Shown here in pieces: positions 3,685 to 60,859 of a stretch of 64,000 nt of DNA. A model generated the notes under the pieces. That model was not told the origin of the DNA, did not search any database, and saw only the letters and a list, made by a program, of their open reading frames with translations. Each line of letters begins with the position of its first letter. The first letter of the stretch is position 1. The position numbers were made by a program, and so were the translations under genes. Source of the DNA: Modicisalibacter xianhensis (GTDB lineage: Bacteria; Pseudomonadota; Gammaproteobacteria; Pseudomonadales; Halomonadaceae); assembly GCF_900113605.1 (NCBI RefSeq), contig NZ_FOPY01000004.1, forward strand, positions 1-64,000. The letters are read 5' to 3'.

Positions 3685-4060
3685 TGGGTAAGACAATGAT
3701 CGCGCTGGTGGATTGCAACACTTATACATCTCGTTCGAGCGGGTATTCAATCCGAAGCTGGAGCAGCTGTGCCAAGGCTCATTTAGCAGCACACCCCTGT
3801 CGCGGAATTATGTGACATTGCCCGGAGAACAGGTGTTCGTCTGGCTTGCATGGGGTACATTCCTTCTGGGAACTGTGCCAGGCCGATCCCCCGGCGCATT
3901 GCGCGAGCAGTTCAGTATGGTGATGGAGAGGACGGTGCGGGAGTGCGCGGCGTGGACTGTAGAGAGGCAGGCGTCATCACCAAGCCCAAGCAGACGCCCC
4001 GCTACACCGCCCGATGGGACGAGCTGCCCGTGGCTTGTGCGATGAGCCAACACGCAAAAG
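3685..4060 (+). pseudogene. umuC: umuC remnant with large internal deletion
   Basis: MGKTMIALVDCNTY at 3685 is the N-terminus of UmuC (polymerase V, Y family), continued after a frameshift as FERVFNPKLEQ. The next recognisable part is the C-terminal DUF4113 end, KPKQTPRYTARWDELPVA, at about 3980-4036. The roughly 1 kb of polymerase domain that should lie between is missing. A weak hairpin with AGCCC/GGGCT at 4059-4082 may be the old terminator. It directly follows the umuD remnant, so a whole umuDC operon has decayed here. Confidence 0.78.
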
Positions 4061-4471
4061 CCCAACCGCTTAAGGCCGGGCTGTTTATAACGCTGCTTTC
4101 CTTGCTGCCCTCATAGGCATCTTGCCCATACTCCACGGTGCTTGAACTATCCATGCGCCCGGCGTTTTTTGCTTGCCTTGTTTGAGCTTTCCTCAACTCG
4201 GCGGGCGCAGAGTGGCAGGTAGAGACGGATTACGGATTGAAAAATTAGCGATGCTTGCAGGAAATTACCGTCACACAGCGTAGTAGCTATCAAAACGTCA
4301 CTATCATGAGCTAATTGACAATTATGACTAACGCTATGCTTGAGAGGTATCGTGTTGGAAATCAATCCATGTTATACGAGAGAGAAAACAAGTAGTTTAC
4401 GATCCACAACTCACGTTACGAGGCGCGGCAGGCCCCGTAGTGTTCTCATCACTACCTGCATGGATACCTGC

Positions 4472-5272
4472 ATGAGCCTTCAAGCTAGTGTACTCATTAG
4501 GCAGTTCAGCCAGTACTGTACTTTATCGTTTGCCGACAAGGAGATATTGCTCTCTTTGGAGCAGCATCCGATCCGCGTCAGCGCAGCACAAGCCATCTGC
4601 CTGGAAGGTGACGAGCCCGAGCAGTTTTTTACTATCAGGGAAGGCTGGGCTTTCTCGTTTCGAACCCTGGACGATGGCAGCCGACAGATTCTTAAGATCT
4701 ATCTGCCGGGCGACATCATTGGGATGCGAGACTTCTCCTTCTCCCAGCGCTTGGCCGGGGTCGCCATGATCACTGATGGCGTTATCTGCGCTTTCAATCA
4801 CCCACAGCTACTCTCGGTATTTCATCGTTCAGGGAACCTGGCGGTTGGCTTCATCGCGATTGCCAGTCGTCAGCAGGCGATGCTGACCGAGCGCATGATT
4901 TACCTGGCGCAACGCCCCGCACAACAAAGGCTGGCACATTTCCTATACGAAATGTACCTGCGCCTAAAGCGAATCGGCGCCGTACAAGAGGGACAGTTTC
5001 TCCTGCCACTGTCACAGGAGCAGATTGGAGAAGCGCTGGGACTCAGCGCGGTTCATGTTAACCGCACCTTCAAAGCCTTCCGTGAAAGTGGAATAGTCTT
5101 GCGAGAGCGCCATCACGTCTCCATTCCCAACCTCAAAGACCTGGCCAACCTCGCTGAATTTGATGGCGGCTATCTCAACAACGAAGTTCCATCGGGTTTT
5201 TTTGTTCCACAGTGGGAGGAAGATATCCGTAAGGAATCACTGGATCACACGACCAATCTGGGCGGGCCGTAA
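4472..5272 (+). CDS. Crp/Fnr-family transcriptional regulator
   Basis: A 266-residue regulator with an N-terminal cNMP-binding-type beta roll (AICLEGDEPEQFFTIREGW, then GDIIGMRDF), a dimerisation helix (RMIYLAQRPAQQRLAHFLYEM) and a C-terminal winged helix (LSQEQIGEALGLSAVHVNRTFKAF). The recognition helix has VNR in place of the E-x2-SR of FNR, so it should bind a different site. No Fe-S cysteine cluster is present. The open frame extends upstream to 4340; the ATG at 4472 fits the usual family start, but no strong ribosome-binding site decides it. The C-terminal tail after residue 210 is longer than usual. The target genes are unknown; the lyase downstream is a candidate. Confidence 0.8.
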   Translation: MSLQASVLIRQFSQYCTLSFADKEILLSLEQHPIRVSAAQAICLEGDEPEQFFTIREGWAFSFRTLDDGSRQILKIYLPGDIIGMRDFSFSQRLAGVAMITDGVICAFNHPQLLSVFHRSGNLAVGFIAIASRQQAMLTERMIYLAQRPAQQRLAHFLYEMYLRLKRIGAVQEGQFLLPLSQEQIGEALGLSAVHVNRTFKAFRESGIVLRERHHVSIPNLKDLANLAEFDGGYLNNEVPSGFFVPQWEEDIRKESLDHTTNLGGP

Positions 5273-19182: not shown

Positions 19183-19189
19183 TAGGGGC

Positions 19190-19376
19190 ACGGTAAGCAG
19201 CGGCCAAGGAGAGGTCGCCAGTTCATGGAAGAGCGCGGTCAGGATGACCGAGACTTGGGAAAGAAGGCAACGACGGCAGGACGCCACTGATGCCAAGGAT
19301 CCCGAATAGCTTACCCTTTCGCAGAGCGTGATTCTGCTCCAGCCCGGTCCTCTCCCATTGAGGCCGGGCTTAGTTT
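19190..19376 (+). ncRNA. Csr/Rsm-type small RNA candidate 1 (CsrA-titrating)
   Basis: Between the promoter at 19154 and a strong terminator lies an untranslated stretch with six GGA motifs (19208, 19227, 19242, 19258, 19279, 19297). Some sit in hairpin loops: CGGTCA-GGA-TGACCG is a perfect stem with GGA in the loop, and GGC-AGGAC-GCC is another. This is the layout of the RsmY/RsmZ/CsrB/CsrC RNAs, which bind and sequester CsrA (RsmA). The terminator is AGCCCGG (19341-19347) paired with CCGGGCT (19364-19370), then TAGTTT. A possible 21-codon ORF from 19225 has no family features. No classical GacA palindrome is evident upstream. The identification is by motif layout. Confidence 0.75.
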
Positions 19377-29048: not shown

Positions 29049-29740
29049 ACGAATCTCCACTGCTTACGCCTACCCTGTTTCATGCCGGCCCGGTCCCCAT
29101 CAGTGGCGCAGTCGTGGTGACATGGCTGCTGGTTGCGGTGATCACCACGGCCAGTTGGGCGCTGACCCGACATCTCTCGCTGCGTCCCGGTAAAGCCCAG
29201 TGCGTACTCGAATTGTTCGTCGAGACACTCGACAATCAGATTCGCGACACCATGCAGGTGCAGCCCGAACCCTATCGGGCCCTGATCGGCACCCTGTTTC
29301 TCTATATTCTTGCCGCCAACTGGTCGTCGCTGGTTCCCGGCATAGAACCACCAACGGCACGTCTGGAAACCGATATCGTGCTGGCCATGATCGTGCTGCT
29401 GGCCAGTATCGGTTACGGCGTGGCAACTCGTGGCGTCAGGGGCTACCTGCGCACCTTCGCCGAGCCGAGCTGGGTAATGATTCCCTTGAATCTCGTCGAA
29501 CAGCTCACGCGCACGTTCTCGTTGATCGTGAGGTTGTTCGGCAATGTCATGAGCGGTGTATTCGTGCTGGGCATCACCTTGTCACTGGCCGGACTGCTGG
29601 TGCCGATCCCATTCATGGCGCTGGACTTGCTGACCGGTGCCATCCAGGCCTACATCTTCAGCGTCCTCGCCATGGTGTTTCTGGGTGCCGCCGTAGAGGC
29701 CCACCCAACACCCAAAACATTGGAAAACAAGGAGCCTTGA
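29045..29740 (+). CDS. atpB: N-type ATPase a subunit
   Basis: A 231-residue integral membrane a subunit. The essential arginine is in SLIVRLFGNVMSG, and the last helix region is QAYIFSVLAMVFLGAA. Five or more membrane helices are visible. It forms the ion half-channels against the c-ring. ATGA overlap with atpR. Confidence 0.92.
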   Translation: MNESPLLTPTLFHAGPVPISGAVVVTWLLVAVITTASWALTRHLSLRPGKAQCVLELFVETLDNQIRDTMQVQPEPYRALIGTLFLYILAANWSSLVPGIEPPTARLETDIVLAMIVLLASIGYGVATRGVRGYLRTFAEPSWVMIPLNLVEQLTRTFSLIVRLFGNVMSGVFVLGITLSLAGLLVPIPFMALDLLTGAIQAYIFSVLAMVFLGAAVEAHPTPKTLENKEP

Positions 29741-56346: not shown

Positions 56347-56444
56347 GAAAACGGTACCTGTCTGAGCATATGACACAGGATAGTCACCGGGATAGTACCC
56401 GAGACATCAAGAATAGGCATGTCCAAAACCAGCGAGACCTTGTA

Positions 56445-58070
56445 ATGCGCTTTCAACTGACGCCAAGAGGCTTTCTGCCCGGCCTGCTTCTATTGCTGAC
56501 CTGCCTGATGGTGATGGTCGCCGCCTCGGCCCAAGGCGACGACGCGCTCCCCATGGAAGGCATCGAGGCCCTTATCACCGGCCAGGAAGGCGACAGCGAC
56601 AGCCTGCTCCACCAGGTCTACGAACGGCGTGGTTTCGAGCCCGCCTGGAATGATGAGGCCACGCTTGCCGTGTTCATTGATGCATTGTCTTCCCTGGCTG
56701 ACGATGGCCTGGATCCGGCCGACTATGCTACGGGCATTCTGCAGGAGGAGTACCGGCAGGTACAGGCGACGGGAACAGCGCTTCAACGCGCGCGCTTCGA
56801 TGTCAATGCCACCCGTACGTTTCTGCTGGCGCTGCGTCATCTACAGCGTGGCAAGGTCGATCCCTTTGCCATCTATGAGCGCTGGGAAGTACCTATCGCC
56901 GAGGTGACGCTGGACCCCATGATGGTATCGAACGCCATCGATACCCGGCAATTTGCCCAGGCCTTTGCCGATGCCCGCCCAGCCTATCCCCCTTACGAAC
57001 GACTGCGCTCGGCGCTGGCCAAATATCGCCGCATTCAGGCCCTGGGGGGGTGGCCCACGCTGCCATCCCGCGACCAATCGCTGCGGCCGGGCGAGACACA
57101 TGAAGACATTCTGCTTCTGCGCCAACGGCTGGCCATGATTGGCGAGACCATGCTGTCACCCACCGACGCCCCCGATATGTTGCCTACCCGCTATGACGAG
57201 GCCTTGGCGGTGGCAGTTCGTCGGTTCCAGGAGCGCCACCTGTTGCAGGCCGATGGCATCGTTGGCCCGCGTACCCGGGCTGCGCTTAATGTTCCGGTAG
57301 AAGCCCGCATCGACCAGATTCGTGCCAATCTCGAGCGGGCCCGCTGGCTGTTGCATGACCTGCCCGACACGTTCGTGCTGGTCGATATCGCCGGTTACCG
57401 ACTCAGTTACTTTCGTCCCGATGGCCAAATCTGGCGCACCCGTATCGTGGTCGGCCAGCCCTATCGACAGACTCCGTCACTGCGCTCCGAGATAACTCAC
57501 GTCACGGTCAACCCGACCTGGACCATTCCGCCTACGATCCTGCGCCAGGATGTGCTGCCCCAGGTGCGTCGCGATCCGGGCTACCTGGCCCGGCACCGGA
57601 TCCAAGTGCTGGATGGTTCGGGGTATCGCCTGGATCCCTTTTCCATCGACTGGACACGTCCCGGCAACGTCATATTGCGCCAGGCGGCTGGCCCCGGTAA
57701 TGCGCTTGGCCAGGTCGTCATCCGCTTTCCCAACCAGCACCTGGTCTATCTTCACGATACGCCGGCGCAAGCCCTGTTCGCCCAGGAACAGCGCGCCTTC
57801 AGTTCGGGCTGCATCCGCGTCCAGCAGGTGCTCGAACTCGTCCAGCATCTGTTCGATGATACCGGTACCGACCAACACCTCGCCTCGCTCATCGCAACCG
57901 GAGAGACGCGTAACGTGCCTCTTTCCCGCACAGTCCCGCTTATCCTGAGCTACTGGACCGCCCAGGCGGATGAAGCCGGTTTCGTCACCTTCCGCCCGGA
58001 TATCTATCAGCGAGACGCTCCCCTGCTTGCGGCTCTGGACCGTCCCTTTTTCTTGCGCGACGAGAGGTAA
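56445..58070 (+). CDS. L,D-transpeptidase, YcbB/LdtD type
   Basis: A 541-residue periplasmic enzyme with an N-terminal membrane or signal segment (LLLLLTCLMVMVAASAQG). It has a scaffold helical domain, a peptidoglycan-binding domain (AVAVRRFQERHLLQADGIVGP, about residues 245-275), and a YkuD catalytic domain. The YkuD domain has the Cys in AFSSGCIRVQQ (about 462) and its His in YLHDTP. It makes 3-3 cross-links in murein. The frame opens at 56370; the start at 56445 is chosen to begin before the signal segment. Small RNA 2 follows. Confidence 0.88.
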   Translation: MRFQLTPRGFLPGLLLLLTCLMVMVAASAQGDDALPMEGIEALITGQEGDSDSLLHQVYERRGFEPAWNDEATLAVFIDALSSLADDGLDPADYATGILQEEYRQVQATGTALQRARFDVNATRTFLLALRHLQRGKVDPFAIYERWEVPIAEVTLDPMMVSNAIDTRQFAQAFADARPAYPPYERLRSALAKYRRIQALGGWPTLPSRDQSLRPGETHEDILLLRQRLAMIGETMLSPTDAPDMLPTRYDEALAVAVRRFQERHLLQADGIVGPRTRAALNVPVEARIDQIRANLERARWLLHDLPDTFVLVDIAGYRLSYFRPDGQIWRTRIVVGQPYRQTPSLRSEITHVTVNPTWTIPPTILRQDVLPQVRRDPGYLARHRIQVLDGSGYRLDPFSIDWTRPGNVILRQAAGPGNALGQVVIRFPNQHLVYLHDTPAQALFAQEQRAFSSGCIRVQQVLELVQHLFDDTGTDQHLASLIATGETRNVPLSRTVPLILSYWTAQADEAGFVTFRPDIYQRDAPLLAALDRPFFLRDER

Positions 58071-58124
58071 GGTCAGCATTGCACGCTAACGATCAAGCAG
58101 CGAATGACTAGCACAAAAAGCACT

Positions 58125-58139
58125 GTAACTTTTTGTTAC
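58125..58139 (+). promoter_or_regulatory. Inverted repeat upstream of small RNA 2
   Basis: GTAAC-TTTTT-GTTAC is a perfect inverted repeat centred about 60 bases before the predicted RNA start. GacA/UvrY sites upstream of rsm/csr RNAs have the form TGTAAG-N6-CTTACA at a similar distance; this repeat is related but not identical. TGAAAT at 58189-58194 or nearby sequence could serve as -10. Confidence 0.4.
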
Positions 58140-58189
58140 CATCTACTACGCTTTGTTGACAAGCATCATGGTTTTCCACCGCAGGGTTT

Positions 58190-58400
58190 GAAATGATGCT
58201 TTCACGACACAGGAAGCGTCGAAGGAAACGGTGCAGGAAGCATCAGGCCTCAAGGACGCAAGAGGCAGGACGCCTCGAGATGAGACAGGATGATCGGCAG
58301 GATGCCGTTTGGCCAGGAGGCCGCCGCAGGGAGCGATTTGGCTACGGCAGGATGCGGACAGATATAAGGGCCTCGACCAGGGACTGGCGAGGCCCTTTCC
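58190..58400 (+). ncRNA. Csr/Rsm-type small RNA candidate 2 (CsrA-titrating)
   Basis: About 210 bases without a plausible gene and with eleven GGA motifs before the terminator (58212, 58224, 58236, 58254, 58268, 58288, 58300, 58316, 58330, 58350, 58356). Four lie exactly in hairpin loops: GGTGC-AGGAA-GCATC, GAGGC-AGGAC-GCCTC, CGGCA-GGA-TGCCG and GGCC-AGGA-GGCC. That layout is diagnostic for CsrB/RsmZ-type RNAs that sequester several CsrA (RsmA) dimers. A strong terminator closes it: AGGGCCTCG pairs with CGAGGCCCT around 58367-58396, then TT. The 5' end is estimated. Its strand follows from the GGA motifs and the terminator. Confidence 0.88.
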
Positions 58401-58426
58401 TCATTTGCAAAAGGTCGTTCACTCGA

Positions 58427-60859
58427 TCATGGGCAGTCCCGATTCGGCTGCCAGCAGCGTTCTTCCTCGGAATAGTGCAGTTCCAGCCGCTGCCCGGCGC
58501 CGAACGGGTGTATCTCGTCGCGAAACATGACCCGTTCCGGCCCCACCCAGCTTTCCGGTGCCGTCAGCGTTAGACGATCGCCTTCCAAATCGAGTTCGAG
58601 CCAGCAACCACGATAGCGTAACCGCAGATGCAAGCCGCCCAATGCCTCGGGCAGGCAAGGATTGAGCCGCAGCATGCCATCGCGAATTTCCAGCCCGGTG
58701 TGGCCGCGCTGGATCAGGTCGACGCTTCCCGCCATGGCGCCCAGGTGGATACCTTCCGGGGTCGTGCCGCCCTGGCTGTCCTCGATATCGCTCTGTAGCA
58801 CCTGCTGGAACAGCTCCCAGGCTTGAAGACGGTCTGCACGCGCCAGCACCCAGGAAGTCACGACCCGACTGAGTGTCGACCCGTGCGAGGTGCGCTGCTG
58901 GTAGTAATCGATGGTGCGCGGAATCAGCTCACCGGAGAATGGATAACCGAGCTGGGCGAAGATGTCGCCCAGCTCCTCGGCGGAAAACAGGTAGAACAGC
59001 ATCAATACGTCGGCCTGCTTCGACGCCTTGTAGCGATTGACGGTATCGCCTTCCGCCTCGAGTAGCCGGTCCAGACGATGGATATCGCCGTAGCGTTCGC
59101 GATAACCGGCCCAGTCGAATTCCTGCAACCCTTCGTAGCCCTCGAACTGACTGGGAACGCCATCGGCATGGAACGGCACGAAGAGCTGCTGGCCAATGCT
59201 CATCCACTGGCTGACTTCACGGTCCGAAAGTGCCAGCGCGTCGTTCAGTTCCCCACGCCGCCGCTCGCCGATCAGGTCGTAGACATTCACCGCACGTCCC
59301 AGAACCCAGGCCGCCATGACATTGGTATAGGTGTTGTTGTCGAGCCCTGGCGCCTGGGCATCGGGGTAACGGTCGTGAAATTCGTCGGGCCCCATCACGC
59401 CACGAATGTCGTAACGCTTGCGCTGCGCATTCCAGCTTGCGGCGCTCGCCCAGAATCGAGCGATCTCGAAAAGCATCTCGGCGCCGTAATACGCCAGGAA
59501 CTCACGATCCTCGGTGACTTCGTAGTAACGCCAGACGTTGTAGGCCACGGCGGCATTGACGTGGCGCTGCAGCGAACTGTTGTCGGGAATCCAGCGACCC
59601 GACTTGGGATTGAGATGGACCTGCTGGCTTTCCTCGCGCCCGTCACTCCCGCTTTGCCAAGGATACATGGCGCCCCGGTAACCGGCCTGGCGGGCCAGAT
59701 GACGGGCCTCGTCCAGGCGCCGGTAGCGATAGCGCAGCAGCGCACGGGTAATCTCGGGAATGCGATAGTTCAGGAACGGAAAGATGAACAACTCGTCCCA
59801 GAAAATGTGGCCGCGATAGGCTTCGCCATGCAGCCCGCGGGCCGGCACGCCAACATCCAGGTCGACACTGTGCGGCGAGACCGTCTGCAGCAGATGGAAG
59901 ATATGCAGGCGCAAAATCATCTGTACTCGCCCACCGCCGTCGAGCCCGATGTCGCAGCGTTGCCAGAGATGCTGCCAGGCTCGCCGATGGCTATCCAGCA
60001 ACTCGTCGAACGCTCCTGCCCTGGCCACCGCCTGACAAGCGGCGAACCCGGGTTCGGCAATCGCGCGGTCGCGCGACGTATGCAACGCCACGATCTTCTC
60101 GACCACGGCTTCGCCGCCTGCCGCAAGTTCGAACGTCATCTCTTGGGCAATGTAGCCAGCCTCCTCGACGGGCTGTCGCTTGCCCTCGATCTCCTGGCCG
60201 GCAACGCGCAAGCGCGTGCGCGCCGCCTGAGCGATGCGCAGCTTGGATTGCCGGGTTTCGACCTGAAGACAAATCGTGTCGTCACCCGGTGCATCCGCCG
60301 ATAGTGGGGCCAGATGGGTGCTGGCCAGTTGCCGATAGCGCGCCACGCCGGCGTTGATCACCCGCCCATCCAGGGCCGACCGCACGGTGATGCGCCCCGC
60401 CCAGTTTTCGGGGCGAATGCGCCATTCGATGGCGCCCAGGTGAGGCTGGGCCATATGTACCAGACGCTGCGTGATCAGCGTGGTTTCACGGCCCTGATGG
60501 TCACGAAAGAAGAGCTGACGCTTGAGCACACCACTTTCGATATCCAGGCACTGGCGGTAATCGAGCAGTTCCACCGCCATGAGGTTGAACCAGTCGCCGC
60601 CTTCAGGCCGGAATGTCAGGCACAGCCAGTTGGGCAGGTTGACCAGGTCCTCGTTTTCGACCACTCGGCCGGCGATTTCCGTCGACAGGCGATTGTAGCC
60701 CCCCGCCAGGTAGGCCCCGGGATAGTGAAACTCCCCCGCTTCCGCCTCACCGGCAGCCCCGCGGGTCGCAAAGTAACCGTTGCCCAGCGTGCACAGGGCT
60801 TCACGCAACCCTTCCTGGGCTGGATCGAAGCCATGATATTCGAGCGTCCACTCGCTCAT
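58427..60859 (-). CDS. GH65 disaccharide phosphorylase
   Basis: An 810-residue glycoside hydrolase family 65 enzyme that cleaves an alpha-glucosyl disaccharide (trehalose, kojibiose or maltose type) with phosphate to give beta-glucose-1-phosphate and glucose. Visible are the N-terminal beta sandwich (TLGNGYFATRGAAGEAE), the (alpha/alpha)6 barrel with FWDELFIFPFL, and the catalytic Glu in GVMGPDEFHDRY with LDNNTYTN. The phosphate-binding loop is in TSHGSTLSRVV. The fused mutase/phosphatase gene overlaps its start by four bases, which points to trehalose as the likely sugar. Confidence 0.9.
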   Translation of the reverse strand: MSEWTLEYHGFDPAQEGLREALCTLGNGYFATRGAAGEAEAGEFHYPGAYLAGGYNRLSTEIAGRVVENEDLVNLPNWLCLTFRPEGGDWFNLMAVELLDYRQCLDIESGVLKRQLFFRDHQGRETTLITQRLVHMAQPHLGAIEWRIRPENWAGRITVRSALDGRVINAGVARYRQLASTHLAPLSADAPGDDTICLQVETRQSKLRIAQAARTRLRVAGQEIEGKRQPVEEAGYIAQEMTFELAAGGEAVVEKIVALHTSRDRAIAEPGFAACQAVARAGAFDELLDSHRRAWQHLWQRCDIGLDGGGRVQMILRLHIFHLLQTVSPHSVDLDVGVPARGLHGEAYRGHIFWDELFIFPFLNYRIPEITRALLRYRYRRLDEARHLARQAGYRGAMYPWQSGSDGREESQQVHLNPKSGRWIPDNSSLQRHVNAAVAYNVWRYYEVTEDREFLAYYGAEMLFEIARFWASAASWNAQRKRYDIRGVMGPDEFHDRYPDAQAPGLDNNTYTNVMAAWVLGRAVNVYDLIGERRRGELNDALALSDREVSQWMSIGQQLFVPFHADGVPSQFEGYEGLQEFDWAGYRERYGDIHRLDRLLEAEGDTVNRYKASKQADVLMLFYLFSAEELGDIFAQLGYPFSGELIPRTIDYYQQRTSHGSTLSRVVTSWVLARADRLQAWELFQQVLQSDIEDSQGGTTPEGIHLGAMAGSVDLIQRGHTGLEIRDGMLRLNPCLPEALGGLHLRLRYRGCWLELDLEGDRLTLTAPESWVGPERVMFRDEIHPFGAGQRLELHYSEEERCWQPNRDCP

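Follow-up and report, generated by a model that had tools for sequence, protein, structure and literature searches.

The region at 58190–58400 (+) of the window, by which we mean the whole 64,000-nucleotide stretch of Modicisalibacter xianhensis DNA that was analyzed, very probably holds a separate gene for a small RNA of CsrB/RsmZ-like function. This RNA would sequester CsrA in trans and seems to belong to an unusually large set of some 16 candidate sponges in this genome, divided among three sequence types. On its sequence features this focal RNA, hereafter type A, is a well supported new sponge candidate whose score keeps it out of the Rfam family and which has no canonical GacA box. The interesting part of the system is the multiplicity of the candidates, the presence of a third family among them, and the csrA and Crp/Fnr neighborhoods of several loci.

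The locus lies between an L,D-transpeptidase gene with a YkuD domain (56370–58070, +), located upstream, and a convergent GH65 gene (58427–60859, −), as the preliminary description, made from the letters alone, had placed it and as Pfam bears out. Its count of eleven GGA motifs in about 150 bases also holds, with 11 in the richest 160-nt stretch of the RNA. Over the whole of 58190–58400 the plus strand carries 12 GGA, nine AGGA and seven CAGGA motifs, and the opposite strand a single GGA; among 160-nt stretches on both strands, the focal RNA ranks first in the window for all three motifs. Compared with dinucleotide shuffles of 58190–58400, the excess of plain GGA is mild (12 versus 9.0, matched in 208 of 2000 shuffles), and that of the longer motifs lies beyond all shuffles: neither nine AGGA (shuffle mean 2.7) nor seven CAGGA (shuffle mean 0.8) was reached in any of the 2000.

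No match in the 64-kb window reaches an Rfam gathering score. With permissive settings on 801 bases, CsrB (RF00018) was by far the best family for the focal RNA (58169–58405, 29.0 bits, E = 4.3 × 10−6), the next lowest E among the six rows being 0.22, but its score stays below the cut-off of 71 bits. A whole-genome search gave RF00018 at the focal RNA with E = 5.6 × 10−6, together with a second match in the genome at C27:19512–19762 (35.2 bits), which likewise falls short of 71 bits. RsmY (RF00195, gathering score 57 bits) gave no row for the focal RNA. BLAST recovered the RNA in three of the 14 genomes of the genus, its own included; the orthologs, from Halomonas sp. McH1-25 and Modicisalibacter luteus DSM 23508, stand at 88% and 75% identity. 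Among 151 genomes of the bacterial family, BLAST returned these three and one further genome with weak hits, and a search of 58 relatives with RF00018 gave matches in three genomes. The orthologs adjoin the GH65 gene. BLAST alignment with M. luteus covers the RNA and the GH65 side but not the upstream side, which argues for a promoter of the RNA's own and is in keeping with a separate gene. The GH65 gene is also present in Halomonas korlensis (83%), but the 2.5 kb beside it hold no AGGA cluster (at most three AGGA per 220 bases, compared with 9 and 11 for the two orthologs).

The expected partners of such an RNA are encoded in the same genome. There are two csrA genes; the best UvrY match (50% identity over residues 1–211 of 218) is a UvrY/GacA homolog followed on the same strand by a uvrC match, a gacA–uvrC arrangement like the adjoining uvrY and uvrC of E. 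coli; and the best BarA match (35%, residues 104–889 of 918) has HisKA, HATPase, receiver and Hpt domains. With CsrB as the best Rfam family, orthologs that keep the RNA, and csrA, gacA–uvrC and a GacS-like kinase in the genome, the CsrB/RsmZ-type identity first proposed is well supported by sequence.

A further early observation was that four GGA motifs sit exactly in the loops of short perfect stems. The stems themselves exceed all shuffles: those of at least four pairs hold five GGA in their loops (shuffle mean 0.67) and those of at least three pairs hold nine (shuffle mean 2.5), values reached in none of 1000 shuffles, with the terminator loop and two overlapping, mutually exclusive stems included in both counts. 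The perfect hairpins, all on the plus strand, are CGAC-ACAGGAAGC-GTCG (58205–58221); TGC-AGGAA-GCA (58232–58242), in which one pair is changed on both sides among the three orthologs; GAGGC-AGGAC-GCCTC (58262–58276) and CGC-AGGGA-GCG (58325–58335), with stems unchanged across the three; CGGCA-GGA-TGCCG (58295–58307), unchanged across the three; GGCC-AGGA-GGCC (58311–58322), in which M. luteus breaks two pairs; and GCA-GGA-TGC (58347–58355). When the region was folded, as had been recommended, the predicted structure was stable (z of −5.2 in one computation and −4.0 in another), yet the hairpin loops of the minimum-energy fold hold only 2 of the 12 GGA, because longer-range pairing is predicted. 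The consensus fold of the three orthologs has 3 of its 52 pairs changed on both sides. One of the changed pairs belongs to the terminator-like hairpin at 58366–58398 (+), which had been described as a strong terminator closing the RNA. Its stem is indeed strong, but its U-tract is short and weak (UUUCC), and scans for terminators and for sigma-70 promoters listed nothing at the focal RNA.

Upstream of the RNA, the palindrome TGTAACTTTTTGTTACCA (TGTAA-n7-TTAC; 58122–58139, +) is a possible activator site, its TGTAA and GTTAC being present in the three aligned orthologs. It is not a canonical GacA box, and its counterpart in the McH1-25 ortholog has a GacA-box score of only 8/12. No canonical GacA box was found upstream of the three type-A RNAs, the best scores being 9, 8 and 9 of 12 at differing places.

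The second RF00018 match of the genome belongs to a different and far larger group, which we call family B. BLAST with C27:19512–19762 found 25 places in 8 of the 14 genus genomes, and 14 of these were used for a covariance model, R1 (85 positions, 14 sequences), leaving out L023 (a near-duplicate of L024), L032 (degenerate) and nine long, partial or odd places. R1 was built from the shorter alignment A2, a first alignment (A1) having misplaced the hairpins. The loop of the R1 hairpin carries AGGA or TGGA, and its stem is paired in 96.9% of the cells, whereas slid controls give 25–48%; both-side changes affect 10 cells versus 3.0 in shuffles. On three measures, namely paired cells, cells with both-side changes and the covariation score, 0 of 500 shuffles reached the observed value; there was no excess of pairs with a both-side change (3 versus 2.1; 134 of 500 shuffles reach 3) or of further pair types (7 versus 7.1; 403 of 500 reach 7).

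Over the bacterial family, R1 matched 104 of 201 genomes (E ≤ 0.01, strict filters), with at least four matches in 26 of them, at least eight in 10, at least ten in six and a maximum of 19, all of these being matches rather than merged loci. With more permissive filters in the genus, matches were found in 8 of the 14 genomes and none in the other 6; the 75 matches were merged to 68 loci (same strand, ≤150 bases, a distance set by hand), of which 17 are in M. luteus, 13 each in the window's genome and McH1-25, and 7, 6, 5, 4 and 3 in the remaining five. Accepted matches in the window's genome extend down to E = 1.7 × 10−5; the focal RNA comes next with E = 0.06 and the following one has 0.58. 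The window itself contains one family-B locus at 4056–4205 (−) (R1 core 4088–4170; 49.8 bits, E = 1.0 × 10−9). This copy appears degenerate, having only four GGA, one of them in a stem of at least four pairs; its main loop has AAGA in place of the AGGA of its relatives. It is one of two degenerate-looking copies among the 13 of the genome, the other being on C23, as judged by eye and, for the copy at 4088 (−), by motif counts. Family-B copies carry terminator hairpins, and some loci share flanking DNA between species. No family-B locus reaches an Rfam gathering score; only that on C27 is named CsrB, below the cut-off, and weak RsmY rows appear at some loci (E ≥ 0.22, at most 22.1 bits versus a cut-off of 57).

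Several family-B loci show individual peculiarities. At L016/L114 (G011:C35, about 29264–29619, −) the sponge is enlarged by tandem hairpin modules, with 20 AGGA/GGGA in 400 bases. In G002, G003 and G011 (L023, L024 and L016) an AGGA-hairpin stretch, perhaps another sponge type, lies directly 3' of the family-B RNA. L080 (G000:C30:1–16000) has four family-B loci within about 3 kb, among two SRAP-domain genes and a Crp/Fnr-type gene. The flanks of L021, L025, L074, L075 and L077 have similar GTGACG...CGTCAC stretches and terminator-like hairpins, possibly another dispersed element or RNA.

The upstream regions of family B are distinctive. Within 170 bases upstream of the R1 core, GacA-box scores of at least 10/12 occur at 27 of the 68 loci versus 19 of 1668 other stretches from the same loci, and scores of at least 9/12 at 39 of 68 versus 51 of 1668; 29 of the 42 GacA-box-like sites scoring at least 9 sit 80–94 bases upstream. 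Boxes of at least 10 are found in 0 of 12 family-C and 0 of 3 type-A upstream regions. Judged by these sites, family B has the best support for GacA control, and the case for it at the focal RNA is weaker. A second element, the palindrome TAACn4GTTA, is present upstream of 27 of the 68 family-B loci, with 25 of the 27 sites 55–69 bases upstream. The background is 64 in 624,899 bases of loci, or 0.017 per 170 bases, a figure that takes in the family-B sites themselves and some overlapping loci. Family C has the form TAACn3–5GTTA in 5 of 12 upstream regions. In its geometry the palindrome resembles the operators bound by Crp/Fnr-type factors, for example the PrfA box.

Such regulators are indeed encoded nearby: a Crp/Fnr-type gene is present in the fetched flank of 18 of the 68 family-B loci, but beside none of the 14 loci of family C and none of 12 further loci, the latter being those at hand and not a random draw. 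The 18 were set by hand, and hits of 43–45 residues (L069/L085, L227 and L231) were discarded because the start of the query was translated sRNA. In the window, the gene at 4340–5272 (+) beside the 4088 locus codes for such a regulator, with HTH_Crp_2 and cNMP_binding domains. The Crp/Fnr-adjoining loci are not significantly richer in TAACn3–5GTTA (11 of 18 versus 18 of 50, Fisher p = 0.095), nor do they differ significantly in GacA boxes of at least 9 (8 of 18 versus 31 of 50, Fisher p = 0.27); the Crp/Fnr link is an association by position only. Another neighborhood involves csrA itself. In the window's genome (C28; L081, 3510–4100), McH1-25 and M. luteus (L225 and L233), a family-B locus is divergent from csrA and shares its upstream region, and in the latter two genomes a second csrA match adjoins. 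Between csrA and the family-B RNA of the window's genome lies TGTAGTCTATTTCTTACA, a GacA-box-like site scoring 10/12.

The preliminary description had taken an element at 19190 for a second copy of the focal RNA. This view had to be abandoned: the element has no Csr/Rsm row in Rfam at E up to 10 and no R1 match at E ≤ 10, and both its GGA count (6 versus 5.8 expected) and its stems are at the shuffle level. Nor is the place empty, since BLAST against 38 relatives revealed a conserved multicopy family. This third, different family with GGA motifs, family C, is represented in the window at 19185–19375 (+) and was found at 14 places in six genomes, all within the genus: two in the genome of the window, three in McH1-25, six in M. 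luteus and one in each of three others. In an alignment of 12 of the 14 places (L204 and L205 omitted), five of the six GGA motifs are invariant and the second is absent from L208 alone. The consensus fold presents AAGGA, AGGA and AGGA in hairpin loops within a closing stem, with both-side changes in 5 of 34 pairs and a small covariation term. Family C may bind CsrA. In M. luteus (L240; G005:C5:252000–260000), the orthologs of the focal and 19190 RNAs lie about 2.7 kb apart, as against 39 kb in the window.

Taken together, the window's genome has 16 candidates (one of type A, 13 of family B and two of family C) with 113 GGA between them, McH1-25 has 17 and M. luteus has 24; the type-A and family-C counts each come from one BLAST query and may be underestimates, and degenerate family-B copies are included. 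Across the 16 candidates, fold z values range from −1.0 to −5.6, and the hairpin loops of the minimum-energy folds hold 1 to 7 GGA.

Three other explanations were weighed. The focal region might belong to the L,D-transpeptidase mRNA, either as a 3' untranslated part whose CsrA sites act on this same transcript or as a 3' fragment processed from it. Its position on the same strand, starting about 110 bases past the stop codon, and the empty promoter scan fit this account, but M. luteus retains the RNA next to an upstream side that BLAST leaves unaligned, and a conserved palindrome stands just upstream of the RNA; we therefore regard this origin as improbable. Improbable to a greater degree is that the dispersed family-B loci are mobile or palindromic repetitive DNA and no RNA genes, their likeness to sponges being due to chance. 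The many dispersed places per genome, a resolvase gene near one locus and the two degenerate-looking copies are what such DNA might display; against this, copies divergent in sequence retain the AGGA loop on a covarying stem, have terminator hairpins and GacA-box-like sites at a fixed distance, and in some cases lie in flanking DNA common to several species. A protein gene in the frame 58193–58573, which is open over 126 codons, can be practically dismissed, as ortholog indels near the start of the frame are not multiples of three and the frame crosses the terminator into the opposite-strand GH65 gene.

As a free-standing sponge gene, the focal RNA would act through its AGGA/AnGGA sites, several of which can occupy hairpin loops: these would bind CsrA dimers and so remove CsrA from its mRNA targets in trans. 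Transcription of the focal RNA, CsrA binding by all three families, control by GacS–GacA and any phenotype are what we infer. CsrB/RsmZ-type RNAs act in trans, and the sponge loci adjoin assorted genes. For both reasons, the earlier suggestion that the nearby carbon-storage genes (GH65, trehalose) are under Csr/Rsm control by virtue of position is unsupported and was set aside. More tentatively, and with somewhat more doubt than confidence, the clade may possess a hyper-expanded Csr system in which many signals are summed as the amount of free CsrA. It would comprise 16 to 24 sponges from the three families, each with a promoter of its own, and some would be tied to a particular Crp/Fnr-type regulator and one to csrA. 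Should the sponges be driven by the Crp/Fnr genes next to them, every copy would have an input of its own. Halomonads are used in PHA and ectoine production, so knowledge of what sets free CsrA in them could have practical use.

Among known systems, the CsrB/RsmB family (RF00018), with E. coli CsrB as an example, has a series of AGGA/GGA hairpins and an end terminator, to which the potential hairpins and the terminator-like stem of the focal RNA correspond, and no other Rfam family matches the focal RNA or C27 as well; these two are, however, shorter (237 and 251 bases versus 356 model positions) and score 29 and 35 bits versus 71. Family B is reminiscent of the RsmX/RsmY/RsmZ RNAs of Pseudomonas and Azotobacter, which are likewise described as short RNAs that form few GGA hairpins and are preceded by GacA-box-like sites, but differs from them in lacking a gathering-score match (RsmY at most 22.1 bits, cut-off 57) and in having 13 to 17 loci in three genomes. 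According to a 2020 review, one to seven homologs are known in its text and nine at most in its table, with RsmZ1–7 and RsmY1–2 in Azotobacter vinelandii (PMC7366521). The candidate sponge genes described here exceed both the "up to seven" of the text and the nine of the table, which makes the reason why many copies are kept a testable matter. The review also relates that GacS–GacA of Halomonas anticariensis controls quorum sensing, exopolysaccharide and biofilm, with the CsrA-antagonist RNA tabled as "Unknown" (PMC7366521); our analysis names candidates for it from the same bacterial family.

Comparable RNAs are described in other reports. Marinomonas mediterranea, of the same order by NCBI, has CsrB and CsrC with a GacA box, AGGA/ANGGA motifs and a terminator; RNA-seq shows loss in GacS/GacA-like mutants, and a GacA-like box lies upstream of csrA1 (PMC8523701). 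That box is similar to TGTAGTCTATTTCTTACA by csrA here; two RNAs are reported there, whereas the present set is large and has one family-B locus divergent from csrA. A GacA box and such RNAs are also recorded in Shewanella (PMC3171408). A study of Vibrio tasmaniensis gives four csrB (CsrB1–4), sibling sponges from duplication, some position-conserved between species, and four putative csrB in Photobacterium profundum (PMC6262261). The Vibrio tasmaniensis set is like the present one in comprising sibling sponges, some kept in place between species, but it has four copies, compared with the 16 to 24 candidates of the present genomes, which fall into three dissimilar families. For Halomonas hydrothermalis, CsrA targets have been modelled, with sponge RNAs deferred to future work (PMC12889724). 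The literature matches listed (titles and abstract starts, mostly without subscription papers) include no report of CsrA-sponge RNAs in Halomonadaceae. Another family of the order has a CsrB-like RNA (L003/L005, G043:C77) that is long and rich in AGGA hairpins and scores 55 bits to RF00018, below the cut-off.
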